Program-made: the position numbers and the translations under genes
Source of the DNA: Bacteroidaceae bacterium
GTDB lineage: Bacteria; Bacteroidota; Bacteroidia; Bacteroidales; Bacteroidaceae
Length of the DNA: 64,000 nt
Assembly: GCA_024398615.1 (NCBI GenBank)
Contig: JAKSIU010000009.1
Coordinates: 1-64,000 of the forward strand
Direction: 5' to 3'
In this document: positions 31,034 to 50,061 of the stretch, in pieces
Layout of the letters: every line of letters begins with the position of its first letter
How positions within the stretch are numbered: the first letter of the stretch is position 1
Notes under the pieces: model-generated
Told to the model about the DNA's origin: nothing
The model's database searches: none
Seen by the model: only the letters and a program-made list of their open reading frames with translations

Positions 31034-31519
31034 TCACTTGATTGTGGCGATGAGTGCCTCGCTGGCGCTTAGAACGTCTTGGAATGTGGTTTCGAAGTCA
31101 TCCGTGTACCATGGGTCAGCCACATCGCGGTTCTTTCCGCAGAACGACATCATGAGTCTTGTCCTTTTGTGGACATCATCTTTCTGGGAGGCGGTCAGGC
31201 GGCTCCTGTCCAGAATCATGTCCAGCCACCTGAGATTGCTGCGGTCCATGCAGACAATCAGGTCAAACCGCAGGCAGTCATCGGCCTGGACCTGACGTGC
31301 GGTCCTGTCAGGGTCGAACCATACGCCATGCTGGCGCAGACACTGGCGGGCCGGCGGATAGATGCGGTTCCCGATTTCTTCGGTCGAAACGGCCATGGAT
31401 TCCACATGCACCATGTCGCTTATTCCCTTGGCTCTGGCCAGTGCCAGGAATATGAATTCGGCCATGGGACTGCGGCAGATGTTGCCGTGGCAGAGGAACA
31501 GTATGCTTGTCTTTTTCAC
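31034..31519 (-). CDS. Low-molecular-weight protein-tyrosine phosphatase
   Basis: A 161-aa cytoplasmic phosphatase. The P-loop CHGNICRS places the nucleophile at Cys10 and Arg16, and DPWY (135-138) supplies the general acid Asp135. Length and motif order are typical of the LMW-PTP family; whether it acts on a capsule tyrosine kinase or other proteins cannot be told here. The start overlaps the dsbD stop by four bases (ATGA), so it is translationally coupled to dsbD. Confidence 0.93.
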   Translation of the reverse strand: MKKTSILFLCHGNICRSPMAEFIFLALARAKGISDMVHVESMAVSTEEIGNRIYPPARQCLRQHGVWFDPDRTARQVQADDCLRFDLIVCMDRSNLRWLDMILDRSRLTASQKDDVHKRTRLMMSFCGKNRDVADPWYTDDFETTFQDVLSASEALIATIK

Positions 31520-33438: not shown

Positions 33439-33498
33439 TTCTATAAAATTTGTCGCGAAGTTATACAAAAGCAATGACAGTTCCTTCTTAAAAAGTGA

Positions 33499-33506
33499 TA
33501 ACTTTG
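33499..33506 (+). promoter_or_regulatory. -7 box upstream of the esterase gene
   Basis: TAACTTTG is a perfect TAnnTTTG box 13 nt before the ATG at 33520, implying a very short leader. No clear -33 element is seen. Confidence 0.45.
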
Positions 33507-33519
33507 CGCATTCATCAGT

Positions 33520-34677
33520 ATGAAGGGAAAGGGAATAATCATGACACTTCTGGCATTTATGGCAATCATGCCATGCTGCGCCGGAAATACCGTAAGGCGG
33601 AAATCTCTCGATAAGGAACAGGCTGCAGCTGCCCGGGCCGATGTGATTGACCACTGGTACAGAGAGATTCGTTCAGCTACTGACTACATTGCCATGGACA
33701 GGAAAATCATTCACGGAGACCTTGAAATGCCCATTTCATGCATGGTGTTCGGACAGAAGCCCGATGACGGCTACAGCCTCTATATATCCCTTCATGGTGG
33801 AGGAAATGCACCAAAGGACCTGAATGACAGCCAATGGCAGAACCAGTGGCATCTTTACAGACCGGCAGAAGGCGTCTATATCTGCCCGCGTGCTCCGTAC
33901 GATGACTGGGACATGCATTTCAAACCCGGTCTGGACGAGTTCTACAAGGACATCATTCTTTTTGCATATTCCCATTTGGGCGTGAATCCTGACAAGGTCT
34001 ATATTATGGGGTACAGTGCCGGAGGTGACGGAGTGTGGCGTCTGGCACCGCGCATGGCCGATACATGGGCTGCCGCTTCAATGATGGCCGGACATCCCGG
34101 TGACGTGTCGCTTGTCAACTTGAGGAACACCCCTTTCATGGTCTGGTGCGGGGCTCTTGATTCGGCCTATGACCGCAACAGGCAATGTTCTGCCCGCATT
34201 GCGGAATTGGACTCCCTGCAGAATTCTGACCCGGAAGGATATATTCATGAAGGACATATCGTTGCAGGCAAGTCCCACTGGATGGATCAAGCCGATACGC
34301 TTGCCGTTGGCTGGATGGCGCAATACCGCCGTAATCCTTATCCTTCAAAGATAGTCTGGCGCCAGGAAGAGGTCCTGCACGACAATTTCTACTGGGTCAG
34401 CGTGCCGGATGACGAAATGGCGCGCGGCAAGGAGGTACGTCTCAGTGTAAGGGACAATGTGATAAGCATTGACCGATGCGACTATTCAAGACTGACGTTC
34501 GGTCTGAATGACAGCATTGTCAATCTGGACAAACCTGTCAAGGTGAAAATGAATGACAGGACCATAGCAAGAAAGAAACTGGTCCGCAGCATGGAAACAA
34601 TGGAAAAGACACTCCATGAGCGCCAGGATGCGCGTTATGCCTTTGACAGCGAACTGGAGGTAATAATAAAAAGATAA
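33520..34677 (+). CDS. Secreted alpha/beta-hydrolase (esterase / PHB-depolymerase-like)
   Basis: A 385-aa exported serine hydrolase. A signal peptide (to about residue 22) is followed by an alpha/beta-hydrolase fold with an HGGG oxyanion motif (92-95), the nucleophile elbow GYSAGG (Ser166), and likely Asp near 214 (GALDSAYD) and His near 256 (GKSHWMD). A C-terminal beta-rich extension follows. The substrate is unknown; polyester depolymerase-like and feruloyl-esterase-like folds look alike at this level. Its TAA stop overlaps the ATG of the TlpA-like lipoprotein (TAATG), so they are coupled. Confidence 0.82.
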   Translation: MKGKGIIMTLLAFMAIMPCCAGNTVRRKSLDKEQAAAARADVIDHWYREIRSATDYIAMDRKIIHGDLEMPISCMVFGQKPDDGYSLYISLHGGGNAPKDLNDSQWQNQWHLYRPAEGVYICPRAPYDDWDMHFKPGLDEFYKDIILFAYSHLGVNPDKVYIMGYSAGGDGVWRLAPRMADTWAAASMMAGHPGDVSLVNLRNTPFMVWCGALDSAYDRNRQCSARIAELDSLQNSDPEGYIHEGHIVAGKSHWMDQADTLAVGWMAQYRRNPYPSKIVWRQEEVLHDNFYWVSVPDDEMARGKEVRLSVRDNVISIDRCDYSRLTFGLNDSIVNLDKPVKVKMNDRTIARKKLVRSMETMEKTLHERQDARYAFDSELEVIIKR

Positions 34678-36083
34678 TGAACATTATTTATATGAAGAAA
34701 AACCTATTGGCGGTTGCCGGGTGCATTGTTCTGGGAATGACATCGTGCCAGCAGCTGGATCAGGAACAGAAAGAGCAGGTGACCGTAATGGTTTCCCTGT
34801 CGGAAGACAGTCAGACCGATGACTTGCAGTTGTTTGTATATCCACTTGGGATTGACTATGATGACGATTCACCAATGCAGGCTTTGCCGGATGGTTCATA
34901 CAGCCAGACCATGCCAACCGCTCCTCTGGGAATGTACAGCATGGTATGCGTAAAGGGAACGTCACAGTATTCCTTGCCGCTGTCCTTCATGGCCGTGCAG
35001 GATACGGTCTGCCTGTCTGTCAATCTTGAAGGCGAATGTCCATCGGCACAGATATTGTCCGGCTTCGGAGACAGACGCGCAAAAGCAATTGCAGATGCAG
35101 GTATGGATGCACTCAACAGTTTCAATGCGCTCTACTACAGTCTGAGCCGCAAGGTGTGGACCGATGCCCAGTCAATGGACGTTCAGGGGCTGAAGGACAT
35201 GATATCGGAATATGGAAATCTGGAAAATGAGATTGCCGGTAACCGTAAGGTGAGTGCCGATGTGAAGGAGTATGTCAAAGTATGGTCATATCTGCAGTCG
35301 TTTGAATCATGTACCGTATTCAATCGCATGAACGGGAGCAAGGTCAACATATTCGGTACGGATGATGCCATGCTTTGCCGGCCTGATGCCATTCTTGATT
35401 CTGAATATGCGCTTCTTCATCAGTCGGCTTTGAACACGGCATCGCAGGCAATTCCCAAGGGCACTCTGGATGAACGTCTCAAGTACATTTGCGACAACTA
35501 TTCAACCGCTGCCGTGCGTGAAGGACTTCAGCGCAATGTGCTCAATTCATTCATCAGGAATTTCAATTTCTCAAATGGTTACGAACAGGGGCTTGAGGTA
35601 CTGAATGCCGCCCAAAGCACTTACGGTATAGACCAGTCGTTCATTGATGCTTTCATGGAAAGGGTATCATCGACTCCCGGTGCGCCTTTCCCTGACATTG
35701 AGCTTGTAAATGCCGATGGAGAGCGCGTTTCAATTGACATGTTCCGCGGCAAGTACGTGTATGTGGACCTGTGGGCCTCATGGTGCATTCCATGCTGCAA
35801 GGAAGTTCCATATCTTCAGGCGCTTGAAAGGGAGATGAGTGGTTCCGATGTCGTGTTTGTCAGCATTTCTATCGATGAGTCGGAACAGGCATGGCGCGGA
35901 AAAATGTCCGAACTCGGCATGCATGGCAATCAGTGGTGGAACAGTGACGGCAAGTTATGCGACAAACTGAATGTGTCGGGAATACCGCATTTCCTGATTT
36001 ATGGCCCCGATGGGAAGCTTCATACATACAGCGCCCCGCGTCCATCGGCAGGAGATGCTCTGAAAAAGTTGTTCGTCAAATGA
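34677..36083 (+). CDS. TlpA-like thioredoxin-fold lipoprotein
   Basis: A 468-aa lipoprotein (MKKNLLAVAGCIVLGMTSC; start at 34677 overlapping the esterase stop, or at 34692). Residues about 30-320 have a DUF4369-like beta domain and a helical region; the C-terminal domain is a TlpA/ResA-like thioredoxin fold with WCIPC at 369-373 and the typical PGAPFPDIELVNADGE start near 334. Such proteins reduce or isomerise disulfides at the envelope, probably fed by DsbD encoded on the opposite strand. It links to the esterase by overlap and precedes the promoter of the next gene. Confidence 0.85.
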   Translation: MNIIYMKKNLLAVAGCIVLGMTSCQQLDQEQKEQVTVMVSLSEDSQTDDLQLFVYPLGIDYDDDSPMQALPDGSYSQTMPTAPLGMYSMVCVKGTSQYSLPLSFMAVQDTVCLSVNLEGECPSAQILSGFGDRRAKAIADAGMDALNSFNALYYSLSRKVWTDAQSMDVQGLKDMISEYGNLENEIAGNRKVSADVKEYVKVWSYLQSFESCTVFNRMNGSKVNIFGTDDAMLCRPDAILDSEYALLHQSALNTASQAIPKGTLDERLKYICDNYSTAAVREGLQRNVLNSFIRNFNFSNGYEQGLEVLNAAQSTYGIDQSFIDAFMERVSSTPGAPFPDIELVNADGERVSIDMFRGKYVYVDLWASWCIPCCKEVPYLQALEREMSGSDVVFVSISIDESEQAWRGKMSELGMHGNQWWNSDGKLCDKLNVSGIPHFLIYGPDGKLHTYSAPRPSAGDALKKLFVK

Positions 36084-36142: not shown

Positions 36143-38530
36143 ATGAAGAAATTCTACTCATTTGTTACAATCATGGCGGCACTTGCACTTTCCATGCCAA
36201 CCAAGGCTGAGGTGCAGAGTGCTACCGAACTTTTCGGCATATGGACTTTTACAGCCGACATCCAGTACAACGATGACAGTTACAAGGACAAGATCCTTGA
36301 GGAATGCGAAGTGAAAATCTTCAAGGATGCGAGCGGTACCTTTGAAGCTGAGATTGACGGTCTCTGTGGTGTGGAGAACAGTTATCAGATGTCAACATTG
36401 AAGACACAGGATGGTGTCAAAGCCCTGAAGGTTACAAATCCCAATGGCGGCGGATATGATGCATGGGGTGCACTCGGACTGTGGATGGCCGATACTGAGG
36501 GCAACAACCCGTTCGGACCAACCAGATTAGGCTCGCTTTTCTACAAAATCAACGATGAGGGTACGGAAATCACAATTCCTGACTTCACATTCGTAAGCGT
36601 TTCAGACATAGTTAATGCAGAAAAAGGCACTATCGTTGCCGCTTTGACAAACGTCAAGCTCACTCTCAAGGAAAAGGAAAAGATTGAAATCAAGGACCTT
36701 TCAGGCTCATACGAATTCAATGCCACCACACTTCATGATTATGGTGTTGTGGAGAACTGGCCCACCGGTTTTGCTATGGAAGTGGTCAGCAAGAGTGATG
36801 ACAACACACAGTACGATGTCACCTGGACTTGGGAACAGTTCGGTTCAATAACAATGGACGGTGCATTTGACGGTAATATCTTGAATCTGTCCTATGATTC
36901 ACAGGTGGTAGCATACGACAGTATCTATCTGGCACCATCGACAGCCATTTCACTGTCAGGCAAAATAGGTTTCAATCTTGTAGGCGACAATCTGTCAATG
37001 TCAACAGGTTGCACATTTGCTGTGCCATTCTACAACGAGTCCAGCGAACTTGATTCTCTAAGCTATATCTTCTGGTATGGTGGCGGTGTAGCCAAGAAGG
37101 CCAAGGATGCTCCTGCATTTGACTATACAGGTACCTATCACGCTAAAGGAAACGTCAGCTGGAATCCCGGCATTGTCGAGAATGTCAATCTTGAAGGTGA
37201 CATCGTAATTGAATACAATGAGAAACGGGAGGCATACGTAGTCACAAAGTTCATGGATTACAGCAATCCATACACACTCAATTATGATCAGATGTATCTG
37301 GTTCCCGACGATGAAGATCCTATGAAGGCCACCATTACCAGCGCGTGCCTTGAATTCATCGGTGTGACTGAAGGTAATGACTATAAGTATCTTGCTACAC
37401 GTGACGGCAACCTTCAGGAGAACTCTGTCAAGGTTACTTTCGATGCAGACGGCAACATGACCATCGGCGAAATTTGCTATGCAACCACTACCATGAAGGG
37501 AACTGAGAACGATGCCCTTGCCGTATGGTTCAGTTCAATCAAGGCCGTTAAGGATGTACTTTCAGCTCAAGATTGGGTAGGCACTTTCAAAGTCAATGAC
37601 ATAGACTTCGCATATCTGGCTGCCAATCCCGGATTTACTGTCGGAGATTCCATCACCATCGCATATTACGAAAATTCCGATGATTATGTCGTGATGAGCT
37701 TATTGGGGAACGAAACCTATATTATGAACCAGGGCGCCATGAGGATTATTCCAGGTGAGAGCAATCCACATGTTGCCACATTGACATACGGAATTCTTAC
37801 TTTTGACGGTCCTACAATGCAGGAGACAAGCATTTATCCTGTCAATTTGGACAGAAAAGGTACAATTGAGATCACTTTGAATGATGATGGCACTGTAACA
37901 CTTGGAGATTTCTCAGTTGCCAAGGGCCCATGGAATGGTGTTCCTGCTAAAGTCGTTGCGACAACTGACTTCGCTGCTGCCCAGGCCATAATCTGGAATG
38001 GTTCCCATAAATTGAGCGAAATATCCTATGCATATATAGCCGATGGTGAGACAGTACCTGCAAATGATACGATTGTTATCAGTTTCTGGGCTGATTACGG
38101 ATTCTATACGGTTGACTCTCTGATGGGTTATGACACTTATACCTTCAATCAGGGAATGATGGAAATCGTTCCGGATGCCAATGATCTGCATAAGGCCACA
38201 ATGACTTATGGCATACTTGACTTTGACGGTCCCACAATGCAGGAGACAAGCATATACAACATCGACGAATCACGTCAGTCTGTCATAGAACTTACGATTG
38301 ATGACAATGGCGTAATCACTCTTGGTGACTTCACCATCGCAAAGGGAGCTTGGAACGGAGCAATTGAAAAGATCATAGCATCGACCAGAATTCCTTCGAA
38401 CGTTGAGCCGAAGACTGTTGAAGCTGACGGCAAGATGTACAACCTCAATGGCGTTGAGACCGACAAGGCCGAAGGCATCGTCATCATGAAGGTTGGCGGC
38501 AAGTCAGTCAAGGTTCTGATGAACAAGTAA
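36143..38530 (+). CDS. Large exported repeat protein with sorting-like C-terminus
   Basis: A 795-aa secreted protein (signal peptide about 1-22). No family is recognised. At least two homologous beta-rich units occur in the C-terminal half, about 475-600 and 613-740, with an identical core GPTMQETSIY exactly 140 residues apart; the N-terminal half may contain diverged copies (GTYHAKGNVSWNPG). The last 40 residues (DGKMYNLNGVETDKAEG, KSVKVLMNK) resemble type IX secretion sorting domains. It has its own promoter and is followed by a strong terminator, after which the SusC gene starts. Surface or secreted binding role is inferred. Confidence 0.75.
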   Translation: MKKFYSFVTIMAALALSMPTKAEVQSATELFGIWTFTADIQYNDDSYKDKILEECEVKIFKDASGTFEAEIDGLCGVENSYQMSTLKTQDGVKALKVTNPNGGGYDAWGALGLWMADTEGNNPFGPTRLGSLFYKINDEGTEITIPDFTFVSVSDIVNAEKGTIVAALTNVKLTLKEKEKIEIKDLSGSYEFNATTLHDYGVVENWPTGFAMEVVSKSDDNTQYDVTWTWEQFGSITMDGAFDGNILNLSYDSQVVAYDSIYLAPSTAISLSGKIGFNLVGDNLSMSTGCTFAVPFYNESSELDSLSYIFWYGGGVAKKAKDAPAFDYTGTYHAKGNVSWNPGIVENVNLEGDIVIEYNEKREAYVVTKFMDYSNPYTLNYDQMYLVPDDEDPMKATITSACLEFIGVTEGNDYKYLATRDGNLQENSVKVTFDADGNMTIGEICYATTTMKGTENDALAVWFSSIKAVKDVLSAQDWVGTFKVNDIDFAYLAANPGFTVGDSITIAYYENSDDYVVMSLLGNETYIMNQGAMRIIPGESNPHVATLTYGILTFDGPTMQETSIYPVNLDRKGTIEITLNDDGTVTLGDFSVAKGPWNGVPAKVVATTDFAAAQAIIWNGSHKLSEISYAYIADGETVPANDTIVISFWADYGFYTVDSLMGYDTYTFNQGMMEIVPDANDLHKATMTYGILDFDGPTMQETSIYNIDESRQSVIELTIDDNGVITLGDFTIAKGAWNGAIEKIIASTRIPSNVEPKTVEADGKMYNLNGVETDKAEGIVIMKVGGKSVKVLMNK
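37801..38258 (+). repeat. Internal duplication in the 795-aa gene (420-bp spacing)
   Basis: The stretch beginning TTTTGACGGTCCTACAATGC (37801) recurs at 38221 with one or two changes over 32 bp. The spacing of 420 bp equals 140 codons, marking a tandem domain duplication whose flanks are more diverged. Confidence 0.8.
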
Positions 38531-38595: not shown

Positions 38596-41500
38596 ATGAG
38601 AAAGAAACTTTTATTTGCGTTGCTTACGGTGCTGTTTCTGTCAGTCACGTTACAGACTCATGCTGCAGTCGATGGAGACAGGACTTTCACCGGTACCGTT
38701 ACTGACAGTCAGACAGGTGAGACTCTTATTGGAGTAACTGTGGCAGTATGGAAAGACGGAGAGCTGACCGGCGGGACTGTGACTGATCTGGACGGTAATT
38801 TTTCAATTGACATAGATATTGAAGGATATACCGTGCAGTTAAGCTATACCGGTTACAGGAATCTCACTTTGCAGCCGGGGGATATGAAGAAGGGAATGAC
38901 CGTGAGGCTGGAGCCCGATACCCAGGCACTGCAGGATGTGGTCATAACCGGTTTCTTCAACCGCAACAAGAACACTTTCTCAGGTTCTGTAACACAGATC
39001 AAGGGCGAAGAGCTTAAGATGGTTACCGGAACCAACATCATGACAGCCATTGCAGCCCTGACTCCGGGACTTGAGATTCAGGTCAACAGTTCCCAGGGTT
39101 CGAATCCGAATTACGTGCCTGAACTCATTATGCGAGGCATGTCATCATTCTCAAACGAAGGCCAGAGCGTGAATCAGCCAACCATCATTCTTGATGGAAC
39201 GGAAATAAGCATGACCCAGCTCTATGACTTGGACATGAACGAGATTGAGAGCATCAACGTTCTCAAGGATGCTTCGGCCACAGCGCTTTACGGCTCAAAG
39301 GCGGCCAACGGCGTGATTGTGATTACACGTAAGGCCATAGCCGCCAGTACAATCCATGTGGCATACAACTTTACGGGAAACCTTCAGGTTCCCAAACTTG
39401 ATGACTACCGGCTTCTGTCTCCTGCCCAGAAACTGGAATACGAACGTCTGGCAGGACTTTACGATGCGCATAAGGCCATCGATGCCAAGACCGGCCTGCC
39501 CCTGCAGTACCAGTACGATGAAATGTACAATCAGAGGTACAAGATGATACAGGCGGGACAGAACAGCGACTGGCTCTCCCAGCCGGCCCGTCTGGCATTC
39601 AGCAACGACCATTCACTTCGCATCTACGGCGGTGCGGCCGACATACGCTACGAACTGACAGGCCGTTTCTCCAACACCCATGGTGTCATGAAGGATGACC
39701 TTCGCCGACGTTATAACGTGGGCTTCAACCTTGACTATTTCATCAAGAACAACATAAAGATATCAAACCGCAGCACATACGCCGAGGTTTCCACAAAGGA
39801 TACTCCTTACGGCTCGTTCTCACAGTATGCGCGCATGAATCCCTATGATCCCATGTTCAATGAGGACGGCAGTGTCAATACGGACCTGTCATGGGATCTG
39901 GACAATCCACTGTATGAGGCAACGCTGGGCTCGTTCTCGGAATCGGACTCACGCAGTTTCTCCAACAGTACCGACATTCGCTGGGAACTTAATGAACAGT
40001 TCAGGATTACAGGACATTTCAACGTATCTACAGAGAAGAGCGGTTCAAGCGACTTCACGTCGCCCAAGTCACGCAGCTTCAAGAATGTGGCCGATCTGTC
40101 AAAGCGCGGTTCACTGCAGAGGGGCGTGACTACCGGCAACAGCTATAGCGGAAATGTTGTAGGATCATATAACAGATTCTATAAGGACGAATCGCTTGTC
40201 AGCGCATCGGCAGGGTGGGAGATAGACCATTCCAAGAGCCGCAGTGAGTATGTGAGCGCCATTGGATTCTACAATGACCTGCTGTCATTCATCGGCAATG
40301 CTGCCGGATATCCCACCACATCGGCCCCGGCCGGAACCCAGGGCGAATCGGCTGAGGTCAGCACCTTCCTTTCCGGCAACTATTCGTTCCGCAACCGTTA
40401 CTTTGTTGACGGCACATGGCGCCGCACCGGTTCGTCGCAGTTCGGTGAGAATAACCGCTGGGGTAACTTCTGGTCGGCCGGTATAGGCTGGAACATCATG
40501 AACGAGGGCTTCCTTGCAGATGTCCAGAGCAAGTTTGACGTGTTCAAGCTGCGTCTGTCAACCGGTTACACGGGCAAAGTCTCATTCTCGCCTTTCCAGG
40601 CAATGACCATGTATCAGTATTCGAACAATTATGAGTACAAGAACGGAATAGGCGCAGTCCCAATGACCATCGGCAATGTGGATCTGGCGTGGGAACGTAC
40701 CATGAACTATAACGCCGGCATTGACCTGTCCATGTTTGACCGCCGTTTGAATTTCGTGTTCGATGCCTACATACGCAATACCACAGACCTGCTTCTGAAC
40801 AAGTCGATGGCTCCTTCAACAGGTGTCACTCAGGCCATGGGCAATCTGGGCGAGCTTCAGAACAAGGGTATCGAGTTCCAGATTGACGGCTATATATTCC
40901 GTACCTCTGACTTCAACTGGAAGCTTGGTACTACCGGATATATGAACAGGAACAGGATCACAAAGATCAACCAGGCTCTCAAGGAGATGAATGAGCGTAA
41001 CCGTGAGATGGCCAGTGCCTATTCGTATCCGCTGCCGCAGTATGCCGAGGGCGAGAGCGTATCGGCCCTCAAGCTGGTGCGTTCGGCTGGAATCGATCCG
41101 GCTACCGGTCGCGAGGTCTATATAAAGCTGAATGGCGAAAAGACCTTTGATTATGATGCCACCGACAAGGTACTGATTGGCGACACGCAACCCGCATACA
41201 ATGGAACCGTCAATACATCGGTCTATTGGAAAGGCCTCTCGGTATATGCTCTGGTTGATCTGCGCATGGGCGGCTGGCTGTATAACACCACACGCTCCAC
41301 TAAGGTCGAGGGCTCGAATCCGAAATACAATGCTGACAGCCGCGTGTTCGATGATCGCTGGAAGCAGGAAGGCGATGTGGCTTTCTACAAGAACATAGCC
41401 GATTCATCCACGCCGCGTCAGACTGACCGTTTTGCCGAGAAGGAGAATACCATGAATCTGGGTACTCTCAACATCAGCTACGAGTTCCGTCGCGAGCTGT

Positions 41501-41640
41501 GTGACCGGCTGCACATGCGTTCGCTCCGATGCGGACTCAACTTTACAGACATGATCCGTCTGTCCAGTGTGAAGATAGAACGCGGCACTGACTACCTTTA
41601 TTCAAAGGGATGTGAAATCAACTTATCGGCAACCTTCTAA
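38596..41640 (+). CDS. SusC/RagA-type TonB-dependent outer-membrane transporter
   Basis: A 1014-aa TonB-dependent receptor. A signal peptide is followed by a carboxypeptidase-regulatory-like domain (about 30-115, TGTVTDSQTGETLIGVTVAV), the plug (ALQDVVITGFFNRNKNTFSG onward, with PTIILDGTEISM and ESINVLKDASATALYGSKAA), and a 22-strand-type barrel ending in an aromatic residue (NLSATF). Together with SusD it imports oligomeric nutrients. The neighbours contain no glycoside hydrolases; instead there is a peptidase and redoxin, so a peptide or glycopeptide substrate is inferred. susD begins 12 nt after its stop. Confidence 0.95.
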   Translation: MRKKLLFALLTVLFLSVTLQTHAAVDGDRTFTGTVTDSQTGETLIGVTVAVWKDGELTGGTVTDLDGNFSIDIDIEGYTVQLSYTGYRNLTLQPGDMKKGMTVRLEPDTQALQDVVITGFFNRNKNTFSGSVTQIKGEELKMVTGTNIMTAIAALTPGLEIQVNSSQGSNPNYVPELIMRGMSSFSNEGQSVNQPTIILDGTEISMTQLYDLDMNEIESINVLKDASATALYGSKAANGVIVITRKAIAASTIHVAYNFTGNLQVPKLDDYRLLSPAQKLEYERLAGLYDAHKAIDAKTGLPLQYQYDEMYNQRYKMIQAGQNSDWLSQPARLAFSNDHSLRIYGGAADIRYELTGRFSNTHGVMKDDLRRRYNVGFNLDYFIKNNIKISNRSTYAEVSTKDTPYGSFSQYARMNPYDPMFNEDGSVNTDLSWDLDNPLYEATLGSFSESDSRSFSNSTDIRWELNEQFRITGHFNVSTEKSGSSDFTSPKSRSFKNVADLSKRGSLQRGVTTGNSYSGNVVGSYNRFYKDESLVSASAGWEIDHSKSRSEYVSAIGFYNDLLSFIGNAAGYPTTSAPAGTQGESAEVSTFLSGNYSFRNRYFVDGTWRRTGSSQFGENNRWGNFWSAGIGWNIMNEGFLADVQSKFDVFKLRLSTGYTGKVSFSPFQAMTMYQYSNNYEYKNGIGAVPMTIGNVDLAWERTMNYNAGIDLSMFDRRLNFVFDAYIRNTTDLLLNKSMAPSTGVTQAMGNLGELQNKGIEFQIDGYIFRTSDFNWKLGTTGYMNRNRITKINQALKEMNERNREMASAYSYPLPQYAEGESVSALKLVRSAGIDPATGREVYIKLNGEKTFDYDATDKVLIGDTQPAYNGTVNTSVYWKGLSVYALVDLRMGGWLYNTTRSTKVEGSNPKYNADSRVFDDRWKQEGDVAFYKNIADSSTPRQTDRFAEKENTMNLGTLNISYEFRRELCDRLHMRSLRCGLNFTDMIRLSSVKIERGTDYLYSKGCEINLSATF

Positions 41641-41652
41641 ACAGTGACAATC

Positions 41653-43065
41653 ATGAAGACAAGACATATATTTGGAATGGTTGCAGCAGCAATGCTGGCA
41701 GTCTCATGCGAAAACTATCTTGATATTATTCCGGACGGACAGGTCAAGCGCGAGGAAATGCTTCAGACAACCGAAGGCATTGAGGATGCACTGTTCGGAG
41801 CATACGCCCAGATGCGCCAGCAGTCCCTTTACGGAATGGCGTTGAGCATTTACGGAGTTGAAGTCCTGGCCCAGGACATGGACAGCCAGTGGTCAGATTT
41901 CTCCAACAACATGGGAACCTACAACTGGGAATATTCCGAGGTCCGTGACTGGAGCGAGGGCGTATGGACAGAGATGTATCACAACATCTCGAACGTGAAT
42001 TCAGTCCTTGCTGCACCTATGGTAAGCAATGCAGGCGAATTCCCTTATACCATATATAAAGGCGAGGCTCTTGCAATGCGTGCGTTCATGCACTTTGATC
42101 TGGTCCGCCTGTTCGCACCTCAATACACTCTTGACAAGGCGGCCGGAGGTATACCTTACCAGACGGAATTCTCGCTGAATACTCCTGACTTTGAAAGTCT
42201 TGAAGCCAATTACTCTCATATCCTGGCAGACCTGCTTGAGGCTGAGACACTGCTGCTGGGCGAAGAGGAACATGCCGGTGAAACGCAGTTCATGCTGGAC
42301 CGTCAGACCCATTTGAACCTGCATGCCGTACGTGCGGAACTGGCCCGCGTGTATCTGACCATGGGCAACAGTGCCAAGGCCGCCGAATATGCGGAAAAGG
42401 TCATTGCCGAGAGTCCGTATTCACTTAAGGAAAAGACTGAAGTCATTAATGATGTGGCCGGAATACTTTCACGCAAGGAGTGCATATTCGGAGTCTATTA
42501 CGCCGATTTCTATTCCAATGTGAACACCCTGCTCCAACAGCAGCAGTCTTTCTATTCGCTGGATCCGCGTGATGATTTCATGGACCTGTACAATACCGAT
42601 GCCGACGGACTGGATTACCGCCAGACTGCATATTTCACTGCCGTTGAAACCGGTGGCGAACTGCATTACCGGCTGTCGAAGTTCACTGACATATACGAAC
42701 TCAACAACATGTCGGCCAACCGTCCGCAGGAACTCATTCCCGGCATCAACCTGATACGTATGCCTGAAATGTACTATATCATGGCAGAATGCCTTATGGA
42801 CAGCGACAACGCAAAGGCACTTGAATACTACAACACCGTCCGCCGTCATCGGGGGCTTGAACCTCTGGCATCGGACCGTGCATTGACATTGGACCTGCTG
42901 AATCAGGAACGTCTCAAGGAATATTTCGGAGAGGGACTCATGTTCTTCAACAGCAAACGTCTTAATCTTGCCTTGACATCGGCCGACGGAACGGTCGTCC
43001 ATCAGCCTTCAAACGCCATCTATGTGGCGCCCATTCCCGATGCCGAATACGCCAACCGCTATTAA
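41653..43065 (+). CDS. SusD/RagB-type nutrient-binding lipoprotein
   Basis: A 470-aa surface lipoprotein (start 41653, MKTRHIFGMVAAAMLAVSC; an in-frame ATG at 41644 is also possible). It shows the usual SusD opening ENYLDIIPDGQV, the ALAMRAFMHFDLVRLFA TPR segment near 135 and the C-terminal YNTVRRHRGLEPL and NQERLKEYFGEGLMFF motifs. It forms the lid over the SusC barrel. It is followed after 11 nt by a DUF4843 gene, the standard order in one class of Bacteroidales SusCD operons. Confidence 0.94.
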   Translation: MKTRHIFGMVAAAMLAVSCENYLDIIPDGQVKREEMLQTTEGIEDALFGAYAQMRQQSLYGMALSIYGVEVLAQDMDSQWSDFSNNMGTYNWEYSEVRDWSEGVWTEMYHNISNVNSVLAAPMVSNAGEFPYTIYKGEALAMRAFMHFDLVRLFAPQYTLDKAAGGIPYQTEFSLNTPDFESLEANYSHILADLLEAETLLLGEEEHAGETQFMLDRQTHLNLHAVRAELARVYLTMGNSAKAAEYAEKVIAESPYSLKEKTEVINDVAGILSRKECIFGVYYADFYSNVNTLLQQQQSFYSLDPRDDFMDLYNTDADGLDYRQTAYFTAVETGGELHYRLSKFTDIYELNNMSANRPQELIPGINLIRMPEMYYIMAECLMDSDNAKALEYYNTVRRHRGLEPLASDRALTLDLLNQERLKEYFGEGLMFFNSKRLNLALTSADGTVVHQPSNAIYVAPIPDAEYANRY

Positions 43066-43076
43066 TCATACACGAG

Positions 43077-43949
43077 ATGAAAAGAGCAACATATATTTCA
43101 GGAGCCGTTTTGGCTGCACTTCTGTCAGTATCGTGCAGTGAAACCGACTACATGACATACAACCCCGATGATAACGGAATCTATTTCAGCCGTGACACCC
43201 TGACATTCTCGTTTTCGGTCATGTCAACCGATTCCACGACCCACGTTCTCAATGTTCCGGTAATGATAATGGGAACGCTGAGCGACGTAGACCGTGAATT
43301 CAGTTTTCAGATTGAAAGGCAGATGCCGTCCGATTCCATTCAGAAGCTGATATATGTCCCGAAGGACAGCAGTTTCGTTTGGGCCGATAACGGAGTGCAG
43401 TATTCCATTCCGGATCACGTGACCATTCCCGCCGGCAGCATTCATGGCAACATACCTGTTACGGTAGTCCGTTCCAGACTGGAAGGAAACTATACGGACG
43501 GATATACACACTACCGTCTGGTGCTGCGTCTGGGGGAGAATGCCAACTTCACTCCCGTCCTGTCCGAAAAGGATCAGGTCCGGGTGATACAGTTCGATAA
43601 TGCAATCGAGCAGCCGGCATGGCTTGACTACAAGGGCGACAAGGTCTGGTATGAAAAGGAACTGGGCGTATGGCATCCGTACAAGATGATAAAAATGGTC
43701 GAGTATTATCATGCTCTCAGTGAAATACTGCCTGAATCGTATGTCAAGATGGTGGCGTTGTATGGAGAGAATCTGGAGAATGTCCCTTACGGAGACTTCC
43801 ATGTGTATAAGACCATTATGCGCAAATACATCTATTCTCCCATGTACGAGCACTTTAACGATCCGGCCAACAGGGATATGATTCTCTCCATGTATCCGGA
43901 TTTTCCGTTCGACTTCCCCGATCCGTTCGCACAGCAGAGCGTCGAATAA
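43077..43949 (+). CDS. DUF4843-family lipoprotein
   Basis: A 290-aa lipoprotein (lipobox LLSVSC). The N-terminal Ig-like portion (YFSRDTLTFSFSVM, VMIMGTLSDVDREFSFQI) and C-terminal helical part match the DUF4843 family as remembered, which accompanies SusCD pairs and is probably a surface-exposed accessory binding protein. It lies between susD and the PKD-like lipoprotein with 11- and 26-nt gaps. Confidence 0.85.
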   Translation: MKRATYISGAVLAALLSVSCSETDYMTYNPDDNGIYFSRDTLTFSFSVMSTDSTTHVLNVPVMIMGTLSDVDREFSFQIERQMPSDSIQKLIYVPKDSSFVWADNGVQYSIPDHVTIPAGSIHGNIPVTVVRSRLEGNYTDGYTHYRLVLRLGENANFTPVLSEKDQVRVIQFDNAIEQPAWLDYKGDKVWYEKELGVWHPYKMIKMVEYYHALSEILPESYVKMVALYGENLENVPYGDFHVYKTIMRKYIYSPMYEHFNDPANRDMILSMYPDFPFDFPDPFAQQSVE

Positions 43950-43975: not shown

Positions 43976-45535
43976 ATGAAAAGATATATATCAGCCAGAC
44001 AGACCGCAATCGTATGCCTTGCATCGGCCCTTGCATTCACGTCTTTCCTGAGCTCATGCATAAGTGATGACACGACCGATGCCACCCGTCCGCTGTCAGA
44101 AATCATCATTGATTCGACCAGCATCAGCAAGGTCTACAACATAAGCAAGAACGACGTGCTGCGCATCAGCCCCGTAATAAGTCAGACCAATACCCCAAAG
44201 GAGGTGTCATACACCTGGGAAATCAACCAGGAACCATTCTCGTTCGGGAAGGACCTGGAGTACCCTGCCAAGTATCTGGGCACATACCAGTGCCGTCTTA
44301 TTGTCAGCAACAGTGACGGCAAATCGTTCTTCCCGTTCACAGTGAACGTGAATTCCCCGTATGAGGAGGGCATTGCAGTCCTTAGTCAGGATGCCGATGG
44401 CCGCAGTATGATCTCGTTCATGCTCACTCCTACCGAAGAAGGTGCAGAAAGGCATTTCACCACGGACGACTGCTTTGCCGTGAACAATGAGGACACGCCT
44501 TTCGCATCGCACGCCATTGACATGGTGCAGTCAAGCGGTTCGCTCATCATCGCCTGCCAGGGAGCCGACGGATGGCAGACGGCATCGGACAAGGGACGTG
44601 GCAGTGATGTGCCTACCATATATTATCTTAACGAGAAGACTCTGGTAGCTGAAAACATACTTACCGTATCGGAATATGACGACTTCAAGCCTACAAGACT
44701 GATCATCCCCTCAGTAGGGGCTGAAGGTGTGGCTTATCCCATTCTTTGTGAAAACGGCAGCATATATGAGTTCTCCACTACCGAAGGTGCCATTTCAAAG
44801 CCGACCAAGCTGCAGTCCAAGTACGCCCAGACCTGCACCGTGCATGATGACGGCGGCATGGGTTGGGAGTTCGAACTCGTTTTCTGGGACAGGACGGTTG
44901 GCTGCCTGTGCGAAATTTACAGTGGATACGGACCGTACTACTGCGGCAAGACATATCATCTGCAGCGTGACGATGCTGTCAAGGAGAACTACTTTGGTGG
45001 AAATGACATAGTGAAGATAATACCAATTGACCTTACCGACAGCCAGAAACGTACCGAAAGCAGCGACCTGCTGGTACTTACCAAGAATGCGTTCATGACC
45101 CGCAAGGTCATAGTCGACAGCGGTTTCTGGGTACATGACTATGAGAATGGAGTGAATGTGCTTGCCGATAACGGTGGCTTTTCCGTTGCCTGCGTGGGTA
45201 CGGATATCATTACGGAAAATACACCGTGCGTAGCCAACAAAACGTACTATTCACTGCTTTTCGGCAAGGGCAACAGCCTTATGCGCTGGAACTATACCAC
45301 CCAGCAGACTCTTGACAAGGCCAGCGTCCTGCAGACTTTCGGTACTGACAAGGCCGTAATCACCGATTTGGTAATCAGCCGTGACCACAAGACCACATAC
45401 GTGGCATTCTACGAACCCGGGCAGACAGGTCTGAACGGCAGCGTATATGTTATTGACACCGATACAGGAGAAATCCTGGAACGCCATGATAACGTCTGCT
45501 ATCGTCCTGTCCGTATGATTTACAAGAAAAAATGA
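43976..45535 (+). CDS. PKD-like family lipoprotein of a SusCD operon
   Basis: A 519-aa lipoprotein (lipobox FLSSC near residue 24). An N-terminal PKD-like domain (SYTWEINQEPFSFG, YQCRLIVSNSDGKSFFPF) precedes a beta-propeller-like C-terminal region. Such proteins often follow DUF4843 and are thought to bind the imported ligand at the cell surface. Its TGA stop overlaps the ATG of the TldD-type gene (ATGA at 45532), so the two are translationally coupled. Confidence 0.8.
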   Translation: MKRYISARQTAIVCLASALAFTSFLSSCISDDTTDATRPLSEIIIDSTSISKVYNISKNDVLRISPVISQTNTPKEVSYTWEINQEPFSFGKDLEYPAKYLGTYQCRLIVSNSDGKSFFPFTVNVNSPYEEGIAVLSQDADGRSMISFMLTPTEEGAERHFTTDDCFAVNNEDTPFASHAIDMVQSSGSLIIACQGADGWQTASDKGRGSDVPTIYYLNEKTLVAENILTVSEYDDFKPTRLIIPSVGAEGVAYPILCENGSIYEFSTTEGAISKPTKLQSKYAQTCTVHDDGGMGWEFELVFWDRTVGCLCEIYSGYGPYYCGKTYHLQRDDAVKENYFGGNDIVKIIPIDLTDSQKRTESSDLLVLTKNAFMTRKVIVDSGFWVHDYENGVNVLADNGGFSVACVGTDIITENTPCVANKTYYSLLFGKGNSLMRWNYTTQQTLDKASVLQTFGTDKAVITDLVISRDHKTTYVAFYEPGQTGLNGSVYVIDTDTGEILERHDNVCYRPVRMIYKKK

Positions 45536-48500
45536 ATATGAAAAAGCTTTTCTTCCTTGATTTACTGCTTGTTCTGATACCGGCAGTCTCACAGGCTCAG
45601 ACGGTTTCAGCTCTGGCTGACGATCCCATGATAGGCGCCATGCGCGAAGAGCTGCATTACAATATGGAGCAGCTCAAGACCAAACCGGTGCCGGCATATT
45701 TCATGGCATTGAGATTGAACGACACCTACGGGGCTCAGGTAAGCAGCAATTTCGGCGTATCAATTACAGGCGAGGGGAGAAGCCGCATCATAACTCCTCA
45801 GATTCGCGTGGGCTCGCCAGAAATGGACAATTTCAAGTTCGAGAACCAGACCCGCAGCCGCAACAGTTACGGCAACATGAGCGGGGTGAACGTTCCATAT
45901 ACCGATAATGCCATTATGGCTGTGCGTCAGGGAATCTGGAGCGAAACAATGAAGCGCTACGATGTTGCGGTCACCAACTACAACAATGCGCTTTCACAGA
46001 TGAAGACCAATGCCGATAACGAGGACAAGGCCCCATGCTTCTCAGCCGCACCGGTTGAAGAATACTATGAACCGGAGCTCCCGGCATCGGCCTACAGCTT
46101 TGACCGAAGGATGTGGGAGGAGAAATTGGACCGTGTATCGGCTGTCTTCAAGGAGTGCAAGTATCTGGAACAGGGCATAGCAAGCCTGACGTACAGTGTG
46201 GAGCGCATCTATGTGGTTACATCCGATGGCTCGGCAGTGGTTCAGAACCGCGTGTCGGCCAGACTGATGCTCAACGGTGTCATTCGTGCGGCCGATGGTA
46301 TGAGCTGCCCTCTCTACAAGGACTGGTTCTCATATTCACTTGACAATTTTCCCGATGAAGAGACGCTTGTAGCTGAGGTCCGTGACCTGATAGAACGTCT
46401 TATGGCGCTTCGTGATGCACCGATTGCCGATCCGTACGCAGGACCGGCCCTGATGGCAGGCGGAGCCAGCGGTGTCTTCTTCCACGAGATTTTCGGACAT
46501 CGACTTGAGGCTCATCGTATGAAGAGCGGCGGTCAGACGTTCAAGAAACTGGTTGACAGCATGGTTCTTCCTGCAAGTTTCAACGTATACGACGATCCGA
46601 CAGCCGTGAGCTATGCCGGAACAGACCTGTATGGCAGCTACAAATATGATGACGAAGGAGTTCTGGCACAGCGTGTCCATTGCGTTGAAGACGGCGTTCT
46701 CAAGAATTTCCTTGTTGACCGCACTCCCATTGACGGTTTCCCCAGAAGTAACGGACATGGCCGTGCATCGGACGGTTACGACCCGGTTTCGCGCCAGTCA
46801 AACCTGATAATCGAAACCGAAAGTCCCTATACTGAAGAACAACTGCGCCAGATGCTCATTGATGCCGTCAAGGCCGATGGTAAGGAATACGGCTACTATT
46901 TCCGTACAGCCACAAGCGGACTTACCTATACGGGCGAAGGCGGTTCCATCAACTCGTTCGGCGTTGATCCGGTCGAGGTTTACCGGGTATTCACCGATGG
47001 TCGTCCGGACGAACTTGTCCGTGGCGTTACGCTGATAGGTACTCCTCTGGCCATGTTCTCCGGCATCGTTGCCGGAGGTGCCACGCCGACAGTATTCACC
47101 GGTGAATGCGGGGCAGAATCCGGCTGGGTTCCTGTAACGGCAATTTCGCCAACAATCTTCATATCAAAGGTTGAGACACAGCGTTCGGAAACAGGTTACC
47201 AGCTGCCTCAGGTGCTCGATAAACCCGATTGCATGAACATTACAGGCGAGGACGGAGAGATTATTTTCCGTGCCATGAATGACGAAATGCAGCGTACCAT
47301 GAACAGCCTGCAGGTTGAAGGTCAGGCATTGCCACATTATGCCGATTTCCGCATCAATTCGACAAGGATGCTGCGTATGAACGCCACCTTGGGAGGCCTG
47401 CTTGACAGCCATTACGTTCCCCAGGAACTGACAGGTTCGGTAGGAATACTGATAGGAGACAGCATGTGTGTGAGCGATATTCAGGATATCCAGATACAGA
47501 TGGGACACAGGGCCGAATACGACTGCATCAGACGGTCTCTATGGTATATTGACGACATTGTATACAAGAACGCCATCCGCAATTACAGCCAGAAGACCGG
47601 TCTGCTTCTGACCAATCCCAAACCGGAGAATGAGGCCGGAATTCCCGAAATCATTTCAATGTCGGGAGGTGAGTACATACAGCCTGCTGTCCAGAATACG
47701 GAAATAGACCGTGAAAAGATGGAGGATCTGGCAAAACGGTTGTCGGCTGTCTATCTGGATTATCCCAAGCTGTACAATACCAATATATACATAGGAATAG
47801 AATATACCGATGTCTATCGTCTCAATTCCGAGAATCTTAAAGTTCGTGTGCCGTACATAAACATGACACTGCAGACCAAGGCATCGGTAAGAAGTGCCGA
47901 GGGTTCAGAACTGAGCGAATATTACGACATGGCGTTTGACTGTACAGACTACGATGCCGCACAGCTTGAATCCGAGCTCCGTGAATTTGCCGAGACTATG
48001 CTCCTTAAGGGCTCAGCTGAAACGGTGAACGACTTTTATATAGGTCCTATTCTTCTTGAAAAGCAGGCTGTATCATATTCATTCAATTCGATAGTGAACG
48101 AATTCGGTTCCGCCAAAACCACCTGGGACATTAATTCCATAAGATACAATATCCAGAACACGACTCTGAACGGAGGCGTGCTGCTTGGCAAGCGTTTCCT
48201 TGACACCAAACTTGGAATCCACCTGTATTCCGATATGGAATCGTATGGTGGAATAAAGCTTGGAGGAAGCTATGAAGTCGATTTTGACGGTGTGAGACCA
48301 GAGCATGACTTTGTCCTTGTCGAAAAGGGCATGCTCAAGCGCCTCATGAGCGGCCGCTATCCCGGTGTGGGCTCAGAACGGCCTACTGGTCATTCCATGG
48401 TTTCGGCTTACTCCGTCAGGCCAGATGTCCGCATGAGCATAATGCATGTGACATACGATGGAAAGTCAAAGCCCATGTCCAAGATGAAGGGCCAGCTTAT

Positions 48501-48822
48501 TTCCGAGGCAAGAAAGGCCGGACTTGACCATACCTACTGTCTGCGGAATATCAGATACAACTGCTATCTTCTTACCCGTATTGATGTAAAGACCGGCAAG
48601 GAAACCGTAATCAATGTCAATACCCCGGAATTCGGCCGTCGTGAGCTGATGCATGTCATATCGGCATCGAAGGAAGAGGACATACAGAACTATCCGTATC
48701 CGACATCGGGCCTTCCCACAATGATTGCCCCAGAGGGCATGTTGCTTGAAAGCGTGGAAATGAACCTGACAAAGCCGGCCAAGGCCAGCGAGTTCCAGCT
48801 CACCAATCCGGCCTGGCGGTAA
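45532..48822 (+). CDS. Exported TldD-TldE-like fusion metallopeptidase
   Basis: A 1096-aa protein with a signal peptide (MKKLFFLDLLLVLIPAVSQA; start 45532 or 45538). The first half (about 25-560) is a TldD-type peptidase: HEIFGH at 318-323 is the HExxxH zinc site, TGECGAES (Cys526) the third ligand, and GVTLIGTPLAMFSGIVAGG the conserved core. The second half (about 580-1096) repeats the fold; at the place of the zinc motif it reads FIGPILLEKQAVSYSFNSIV with no histidine, as in the inactive TldE partner. Known TldD/TldE are cytosolic partners that process peptides; an exported single-chain version in a SusCD operon suggests peptide degradation in the periplasm. Assignment of the second half is by reading. 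Confidence 0.82.
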   Translation: MNMKKLFFLDLLLVLIPAVSQAQTVSALADDPMIGAMREELHYNMEQLKTKPVPAYFMALRLNDTYGAQVSSNFGVSITGEGRSRIITPQIRVGSPEMDNFKFENQTRSRNSYGNMSGVNVPYTDNAIMAVRQGIWSETMKRYDVAVTNYNNALSQMKTNADNEDKAPCFSAAPVEEYYEPELPASAYSFDRRMWEEKLDRVSAVFKECKYLEQGIASLTYSVERIYVVTSDGSAVVQNRVSARLMLNGVIRAADGMSCPLYKDWFSYSLDNFPDEETLVAEVRDLIERLMALRDAPIADPYAGPALMAGGASGVFFHEIFGHRLEAHRMKSGGQTFKKLVDSMVLPASFNVYDDPTAVSYAGTDLYGSYKYDDEGVLAQRVHCVEDGVLKNFLVDRTPIDGFPRSNGHGRASDGYDPVSRQSNLIIETESPYTEEQLRQMLIDAVKADGKEYGYYFRTATSGLTYTGEGGSINSFGVDPVEVYRVFTDGRPDELVRGVTLIGTPLAMFSGIVAGGATPTVFTGECGAESGWVPVTAISPTIFISKVETQRSETGYQLPQVLDKPDCMNITGEDGEIIFRAMNDEMQRTMNSLQVEGQALPHYADFRINSTRMLRMNATLGGLLDSHYVPQELTGSVGILIGDSMCVSDIQDIQIQMGHRAEYDCIRRSLWYIDDIVYKNAIRNYSQKTGLLLTNPKPENEAGIPEIISMSGGEYIQPAVQNTEIDREKMEDLAKRLSAVYLDYPKLYNTNIYIGIEYTDVYRLNSENLKVRVPYINMTLQTKASVRSAEGSELSEYYDMAFDCTDYDAAQLESELREFAETMLLKGSAETVNDFYIGPILLEKQAVSYSFNSIVNEFGSAKTTWDINSIRYNIQNTTLNGGVLLGKRFLDTKLGIHLYSDMESYGGIKLGGSYEVDFDGVRPEHDFVLVEKGMLKRLMSGRYPGVGSERPTGHSMVSAYSVRPDVRMSIMHVTYDGKSKPMSKMKGQLISEARKAGLDHTYCLRNIRYNCYLLTRIDVKTGKETVINVNTPEFGRRELMHVISASKEEDIQNYPYPTSGLPTMIAPEGMLLESVEMNLTKPAKASEFQLTNPAWR

Positions 48823-50061
48823 TTACTTCAGGTAGCCTATTTCCTTCGCCTTGTTCACCAGAACGATGAATGAACTTACATCGAACTTTGTCAGGAGTTT
48901 CTTGCGATACCATTTCACCGTTTCAGGACTGAGGCAGATACGGTTGGCAATCTCCTTGACTGAAAGGCCCTCGGCAACCAATTCCAGAATCTGCAGTTCT
49001 CTGTCATTCAGCTTGATGCCGGCTGTGTCAGTTGCCGGCGCAAGTTCTCCGATGGTCTCATTCAGAACCTCGTCCGTCTGTTTCTTCTGCTGACGTAGCT
49101 TGCGCATATGACAATAGATCAGGGCGCAGGCTATCAATAGAAGAATGGCCGCGATGGAAATGATGAGACCGCTCCTGGCCTGACGTTTCTGCAGGCGCAG
49201 TACCTGATTGGTATAATCCAGATTGTCCAGAAGGCCCTGCCATTCCTGATCGTCATGGGCGGAATAGTACTGGCCGGCCTCATCCAGCAGTCTGATGGCT
49301 TTCCGGAGATGTCTCTCGCTCATCTCCACTTTGCCAAGGCCCGCCTTGTTGCCGGCAATCCAAAGTGAGTCTTCCGCTTTGATGGCGTATTCCAGACCTA
49401 AGTCATAGTTTTCCTTGGCCTTCAGAATATCACCTTCTTCAAACCATGTCTCCGCCATGTTGTAATATAGGGAGGAGAGGGAATTGTTCCATCCGTGCCT
49501 TTCGAAAATCTCTCCGGCCTTAGCGTAGTATTCCATAGCCAGACCTATACTGTCCTGAATGCTGTACAGATTGCCTATGGTGCCGTACATACTGCTCAGA
49601 CCGTCGTCGATGTCGTACTGGGTCAGCCCGTCGGGGTGTTCCAGATCAACCTCGCCAACCTTCATGGTCCTGATGGTCTGGAGTGCGGTATTGTAGTAGA
49701 ATGTCGCACTGTCATATTGCTCCCTTGCCCAGAAATGCTGGCCTATGACTTTGGCTGAAGTCCAGACCATATCCTTCCATCCTTTCCTGACGCTGGTATT
49801 GAATACTTTTCTGCTGTAGTAGAGAGAACGTTCTCCGTTGATGTTAAGATATCCCATCATAAGATCGTGCCAATCATATACAAGGTGGAGAAGCTCTTCG
49901 TCACTGGCCTCAGCTATCCTGTCGGCGCTCCAGCCGGCAATGGCCATCTCCAGAGAGTCCACGTTATGGCCACGATGGTCCACGTAACTGCCGGCCTTGA
50001 CAGAAAGGGGAAACACTGCCAGTGACACAAATACGGCTATTGAGAATAATTGTATTTTCAT
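48823..50061 (-). CDS. TPR-TM-LuxR-type transcriptional regulator
   Basis: A 412-aa membrane regulator: signal peptide (about 1-23), TPR repeats (about 60-290), one membrane helix (297-317), a short coiled linker and a C-terminal LuxR-type HTH (351-412) with LNDRELQILELVAEGLSVKE and LSPETVKWYRKKLLTKF. The periplasmic TPR part probably senses a ligand or protein and signals to the HTH. It is encoded tail-to-tail with the TldD-type gene and could regulate that operon or the divergent LuxR/surface-protein genes. Confidence 0.88.
   Translation of the reverse strand: MKIQLFSIAVFVSLAVFPLSVKAGSYVDHRGHNVDSLEMAIAGWSADRIAEASDEELLHLVYDWHDLMMGYLNINGERSLYYSRKVFNTSVRKGWKDMVWTSAKVIGQHFWAREQYDSATFYYNTALQTIRTMKVGEVDLEHPDGLTQYDIDDGLSSMYGTIGNLYSIQDSIGLAMEYYAKAGEIFERHGWNNSLSSLYYNMAETWFEEGDILKAKENYDLGLEYAIKAEDSLWIAGNKAGLGKVEMSERHLRKAIRLLDEAGQYYSAHDDQEWQGLLDNLDYTNQVLRLQKRQARSGLIISIAAILLLIACALIYCHMRKLRQQKKQTDEVLNETIGELAPATDTAGIKLNDRELQILELVAEGLSVKEIANRICLSPETVKWYRKKLLTKFDVSSFIVLVNKAKEIGYLK

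Follow-up and report, generated by a model that had tools for sequence, protein, structure and literature searches.

The closest described relative of the protein considered here is the E. coli TldD/TldE heterodimer (MEROPS M103; PDB 5nj5 to 5njf), a hollow assembly that cuts unfolded peptides and binds zinc or iron through two histidines and one cysteine, the metal ligands of TldD being His262, His267 and, as the third, Cys454 (passages of PMC5810440). For the genes around it the nearest counterparts are RagAB and BT2261-64, presented in passages of PMC7782687 and PMC11817032 as oligopeptide-binding SusCD systems. The window analyzed here is a 64,000-nucleotide stretch from a Bacteroidaceae bacterium (GCA_024398615.1, contig JAKSIU010000009.1, positions 1 to 64,000), in which a single open reading frame (ORF) at the end of a SusCD operon encodes an active TldD-like unit joined to a zinc-less one. 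A sequence-only reading had taken this protein for an exported fusion of TldD with TldE. We consider it fairly probable that a phylum-spanning exported TldD branch made its own dead partner by duplicating the active unit, which would be a second origin of the active-plus-dead chamber, independent of TldD/TldE; the two units would then have been fused in Bacteroidaceae and recruited to a peptide-import SusCD operon in at least one lineage.

The fused protein and its two halves

The ORF (45532-48822, + strand) consists of 1096 stop-free codons, and the fused TldD-like protein that it encodes is real and well conserved. Residues 1-23 (45532-45600) form a predicted signal peptide: the N-terminus, MNMKKLFFLDLLLVLIPAVSQAQ, has by eye the look of a cleavable signal and no lipobox, in line with the export first proposed, and hydrophobic N-termini are also found in fused relatives. 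The active half (residues 24-553, 45601-47190), for which a TldD fold is predicted, contains the zinc motif HEIFGH (residues 318-323, 46483-46500) and Cys526 (47107-47109), the predicted third zinc ligand. Residues 194-545 align with E. coli TldD (phmmer against PDB, E = 3e-14), with HEIFGH falling on HEAVGH and Cys526 on the TldD cysteine, and none of H318, E319, H323 and C526 varies among the 30 aligned fused homologues, the window protein included. The first half thus carries the complete HExxxH plus remote Cys zinc site of M103 metalloproteases, as the sequence-only reading had it.

A linker (residues about 554-572, 47191-47247) separates the halves; in relatives encoded as split pairs its place is taken by the signal peptide of the second gene, and in the fused proteins it is about 20-30 residues long. 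The predicted local distance difference test score of the structure model falls to 63 at residues 551-560. In the zinc-less half (residues 573-1096, 47248-48819) the segment EKQAVSYSFNSIV (residues 843-855, 48058-48096) aligns at the expected position of the zinc helix and lacks HExxxH, so the claim of a replaced motif stands. The two halves align with each other in a single comparison (24% over 303 residues, E = 5e-15). Structure models of both halves, the check originally suggested, predict the TldD/TldE fold of M103 for the zinc-less half as well as for the active one, and by fold alone the second half ties between TldD and TldE. The full-length model has a predicted template-modeling score of 0.83, which is compatible with a hollow dimer cutting unfolded peptides.

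The Pfam family PF19289 (PmbA_TldD_3rd) matches the protein in two stretches, the best covering residues 305-548 (E = 2e-32). In a search of the whole genome, which is 82% complete, this family matches the fused ORF alone, once per half (E = 1e-27 and 1.3e-4, the latter just under the curated cut-off). PF01523, the N-terminal domain of ordinary TldD/E, gives no match in the fused protein at E≤1, none in its genome at E≤0.001 and none in 37 genus genomes searched, many of them incomplete; the fold alignment with TldD nevertheless starts at residue 23. The window protein therefore shares with the E. coli heterodimer the metal site, the fold of both halves and the pairing of an active with a zinc-less unit, but differs in being one chain, in its signal-like N-terminus, in the missing PF01523 match and in the parentage of its second half.

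Origin and spread of the zinc-less unit

In a 61-row tree the active units (A), the zinc-less units (B), TldD and TldE form one group each, and A+B is split from TldD+TldE with support 100/100. A grouping of B with TldE is rejected by the approximately unbiased (AU) test (p-AU = 2.3e-5). With 20 TldD/TldE proteins added from six further genomes (81 rows; L218 was left out for its wrong frame), A+B is again a single clade (100/100) against 32 others, and a split of A+TldD from B+TldE is rejected, with a log-likelihood 163 lower and p-AU = 6.3e-97. With TldE as root, A+B falls within TldD, joining 7 of the 17 TldD proteins at support 100. Because A and B form one clade and B+TldE is rejected in both trees, the dead half most likely arose within the exported branch, separately from TldE. 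The trees and AU tests thus reject the identification of the second half as TldE: by descent it is paralogous to the first half, not an orthologue of TldE as in M103 pairs. In its other structural points the sequence-only reading was mostly correct. The AU tests were run after the first tree had been viewed. The trees have long inner branches and quite a few rows of unusual residue composition; they include no TldD/TldE from archaea or proteobacteria, and one row (L201) has 387 amino acids, cut at its first Met.

At E≤1e-10, 42 of 301 family genomes gave a match. Seventeen of these (the window genome included) have near-full-length single ORFs, one more (L010, genome G070) is broken by a contig end, and the remainder are partial and mostly ordinary TldD; within the same genus, 9 of the 21 genomes in the family sample matched. 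At the level of the phylum 35/345 genomes matched at E≤1e-20, some with the two parts on separate contigs (e.g., G323 and G460). A scan of genome contigs, from which 80 loci of 363 were kept, found 14 fused as a single ORF. Given these 14 loci and the 17 near-full-length ORFs, the fusion is more than chance.

Outside Bacteroidaceae the place of the fusion is usually taken by two adjacent genes, active first and zinc-less second, both with signal-like N-termini; such pairs occur in other Bacteroidota, Ignavibacteriota, Acidobacteriota, Planctomycetota, Cyanobacteriota and others, and differ from the window in being two genes; BLAST with the window SusC gives a single, weak SusC-like match beside a pair, in L062. 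Our pair rule retained 49 of the 80 loci, the rest being fused, cut by a contig end, devoid of an adjacent second gene (as L067, with 10 kb flank) or outside the length limits (as L080). HExxxH is present in all 49 first ORFs and in one second ORF, where it reads HEELVH and is located elsewhere than the motif site (L056); at the motif site itself it occurs in none of 71 aligned second units (41 second ORFs out of the 49, plus the second halves of 30 fused proteins). By a rough hydrophobicity criterion of our own, 43/49 first and 43/49 second ORFs qualify as having a signal peptide. A tree of the active part with 83 rows, made by a quick method with Shimodaira-Hasegawa-like approximate likelihood ratio support only, unites 28 of 30 fused rows in one clade (100). 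The two others, L128 and L043, sit on long branches of unsettled place, and L104 (9857-13354 of a planctomycete-labelled record) is a separate fusion of its own among split planctomycetes.

Export is no specialty of this locus: exported-looking pairs are widespread, and several ordinary TldD proteins have a twin-arginine (Tat)-like RRxF start by a pattern of our own (L025, L027, L028, L029, L197, L209, L215, L221 and L222; L199, L200 and L202 are the same genes as L025, L029 and L028). The genomes concerned include some Bacteroidaceae and records labelled Cyclobacteriaceae and Acidobacteriia; the TldE starts given for several of them have no such stretch, and ordinary TldD/E may be exported in these genomes too. 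Peptidase U62 is the former name of the TldD/E family. PMC4158809 tabulates a "Peptidase U62" among the outer-membrane-vesicle proteins of Myxococcus xanthus, hinting at the existence of exported members. Literature titles and the starts of abstracts yielded no exported or fused TldD, which says little about print overall.

We also noticed related small membrane-type ORFs (open frames of 171-208 amino acids, sharing an EYGGWGIR stretch) between the active and zinc-less genes of L060, L064, L072, L083, L091, L105 and L107. The very similar gene pairs of L050 and L070 come from records labelled Desulfobulbaceae and Ignavibacteriae, which points to a mis-binned contig or a recent transfer.

The importer operon and its relatives

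The fusion is, as first proposed, linked to the PKD-like lipoprotein and SusC/SusD: it is the last gene of the operon, its start (45532) overlapping the end of the PKD-like gene (45535) by four bases (atga), and the genes are probably co-transcribed. All genes of the operon lie on the + strand. A possible first gene (33520-34677) encodes 385 amino acids with a signal-like N-terminus and, by our own reading, a serine-hydrolase-like GYSAGG motif, and has no Pfam match at E≤0.01. On its stop codon begins the ORF of a TlpA/thioredoxin-like lipoprotein (34677-36083, 468 amino acids, PF00578 and PF08534, lipobox by eye), followed by an exported-looking protein of 795 amino acids and no assigned family (36143-38530), which precedes SusC in most relatives. 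This protein has no Pfam match over cut-off, and to our eye its C-terminus resembles a type IX secretion sorting tail. Next come the SusC-type TonB-dependent transporter (38596-41640, TIGR04056, E = 8e-180), the SusD-type lid lipoprotein (41644-43065, PF14322 and PF07980, GTG start as listed), a DUF4843 lipoprotein (43077-43949, PF16132, E = 6e-13) and the PKD-like lipoprotein of 519 amino acids (43976-45535, PF16407, E = 5e-6, below its cut-off).

A TPR-LuxR regulator (48823-50061, - strand, PF00196) abuts the operon end convergently, as a neighboring gene. On the other side, a DsbD-like gene by our reading of its translation (31516-33654) is divergent from the operon and adjoins its TlpA-like gene. 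A promoter and terminator scan came out near chance (27 vs 21.7 on average in shuffles; 14 vs 13.2) and was not used.

Among the eight operon genes scanned no glycosidase family was matched, as the sequence-only reading had stated, nor was the glycoside hydrolase or lyase of a polysaccharide utilization locus found. The operon does have the SusC/SusD pair and the surface lipoproteins of RagAB/BT2261-64-type importers, the lipoboxes being read by eye and the surface location presumed. The best PDB match of the window SusC by phmmer is 8aa4, followed by RagA (6sli). Extra lipoproteins are a feature of BT2261-64 as well. A close kinship of the DUF4843 and PKD proteins to the solved BT2261-64 lipoproteins was not found by phmmer: the PKD protein reaches collagenase PKD domains alone (E = 0.25 or worse), and the DUF4843 protein the "uncharacterized" 3p02 (E = 0.005) and a repeat-driven match to 6xi1.

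Of 251 family genomes, 41 contain matches to the PKD protein, with 27 strong homologues by place (E≤1e-130), window included. All 26 other operons were fetched, and 24 of them are readable (L171 ends, and the PKD of L177 is not intact). The upstream side was labelled in 19 of the 26 (the remaining 7 on the downstream side only), and SusC, SusD and DUF4843 homologues are present in all 19. Upstream, 15 also have a gene of the 795-aa type and 12 a TlpA-like gene (some contigs end early). The importer block is thus the same as in the window, but the slot behind PKD is filled by other peptidases in 11 of 24: M16 in eight (L173-L176, L184, L192, L194 and L195), M6 in two (L188 and L193) and, in L172, S41 followed by C1-like and M20. 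Pfam confirms M16 in L173 and L184, M6 in L188 and the three peptidases of L172, the other labels being by BLAST to these. The genomes have 1-5 M16 matches each (12 searched), and 8/24 is far above the expectation for random placement. The next gene is TlpA in two operons (L182 and L186) and a GDSL lipase in one (L169, same-genus G070), while in ten it is on the opposite strand or more than 200 bases away; in L178 an alpha-L-fucosidase lies 240 bases past PKD.

This distribution supports an importer that carries peptides, with peptidases swapped behind it, and because its relatives so often adjoin other peptide-cutting enzymes, the block probably serves peptide uptake for food. Several points weigh against such a role for the fusion: 13 of the 24 slots have no peptidase as next gene, the eight M16 loci, all from two genera, cannot count as independent, no readable related operon contains the fusion, and in G070, whose PKD is 87% identical, the fusion is on another contig. 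The peptide-import idea is better supported by the operon relatives than by the fusion itself.

Possible roles of the fused enzyme

On balance we lean, by a little over even, toward a hollow oligopeptidase of the TldD superfamily that consists of one chain, resides in the periplasm and serves a SusCD operon for peptide import. The surface lipoproteins and SusD would catch peptides and SusC/SusCD would bring them in; the secreted zinc half (24-553) and the secreted zinc-less half (573-1096) would form a built-in pseudo-heterodimer around a closed chamber, where unfolded peptides would enter and be cut at the HExxxH/Cys site by thermolysin-like chemistry as proposed for E. coli TldD/E. The fused enzyme would in this way trim imported peptides in the periplasm.

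The main competitor, possible though rather unlikely in our view, is a general envelope peptidase: the enzyme would act on its own in the periplasm as an oligopeptidase of envelope turnover, rearranged behind the SusCD operon and merely co-expressed with it. It draws on the unlike neighborhoods of the fused relatives, which also speak against the import role. In seven same-genus relatives (L113-L119, 61-68% identity) the fusion lies elsewhere: in L113 behind FtsK, LolA-like, pyridine-nucleotide-disulphide oxidoreductase, MTHFR and MetH-type genes and before an MFS transporter, in L115 before a flavin reductase and a GH43/32-like gene, and in L117 behind ABC-transporter and FtsX-type genes. Pfam was run on these three of the seven; by BLAST clusters, L114 and L118 resemble L113, L116 resembles L115, and L119 shares genes with L113 and L117. 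Exported-looking pairs also occur in Acidobacteriota-, Cyanobacteriota- and Planctomycetota-labelled records, phyla that are not known for SusCD.

Querying with the window SusC, we looked for the same fusion beside SusCD, as had been suggested, and found a same-strand upstream SusC in 3 of 30 fused loci (the window, L120 and L042, a near-copy of L120). This is a lower bound since some loci have short flanks, and too few for a claim of enrichment. The SusCD link of the fusion is not conserved, and with the 0/24 related PKD operons a conserved partnership is rejected. Peptide import has become likelier through the peptidases in related slots, but these counts do not support calling the enzyme "dedicated" to it. 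The window genome itself has five SusC genes above cut-off, and in L031 SusC is on the strand opposite to the fusion. Against a merely rearranged envelope enzyme stand the other-family peptidases in the slot, the four-base overlap with PKD, and the fusion as last gene of an unlike SusCD/TlpA operon in L120 and L042, where SusC, SusD, TlpA and a second thioredoxin-like gene lie upstream on the same strand with FecR in front (families by Pfam on L120 only; the SusC of L042 reads as two ORFs).

An enzyme that trims or deacylates one modified peptide seems improbable. Precedent exists, as parts of PMC10885120 describe TldD/E roles in the maturation of ribosomally synthesized and post-translationally modified peptides (RiPPs), microcin among them, and a reference title there names TldD/E-type N-deacetylases. 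In L128 (562-5682) LanC-like and glycosyltransferase-like genes stand directly before a divergent fused TldD-like gene, a possible peptide-modification setting. However, L128 is a very long branch, its listed small ORFs, examined as RiPP precursors, include no convincing one, and no modification enzyme was matched in the window operon. Least probable of all is an inactive or binding-only protein, which would fit a chain missing the zinc motif from half its length but not zinc ligands and a catalytic Glu invariant in 30/30 first halves.

TldD/E is known as a two-protein peptidase; if an exported branch did produce a dead subunit of its own, evolution would have arrived at the same chamber design twice. 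With both units in one chain, the fused enzyme also lends itself to probing the role of the dead half. For many SusCD pairs without glycosidases no cargo is known. The slot after SusC-SusD-DUF4843-PKD holds four unrelated peptidase arrangements, the fusion among them, which gives a testable rule: this block would carry peptides.
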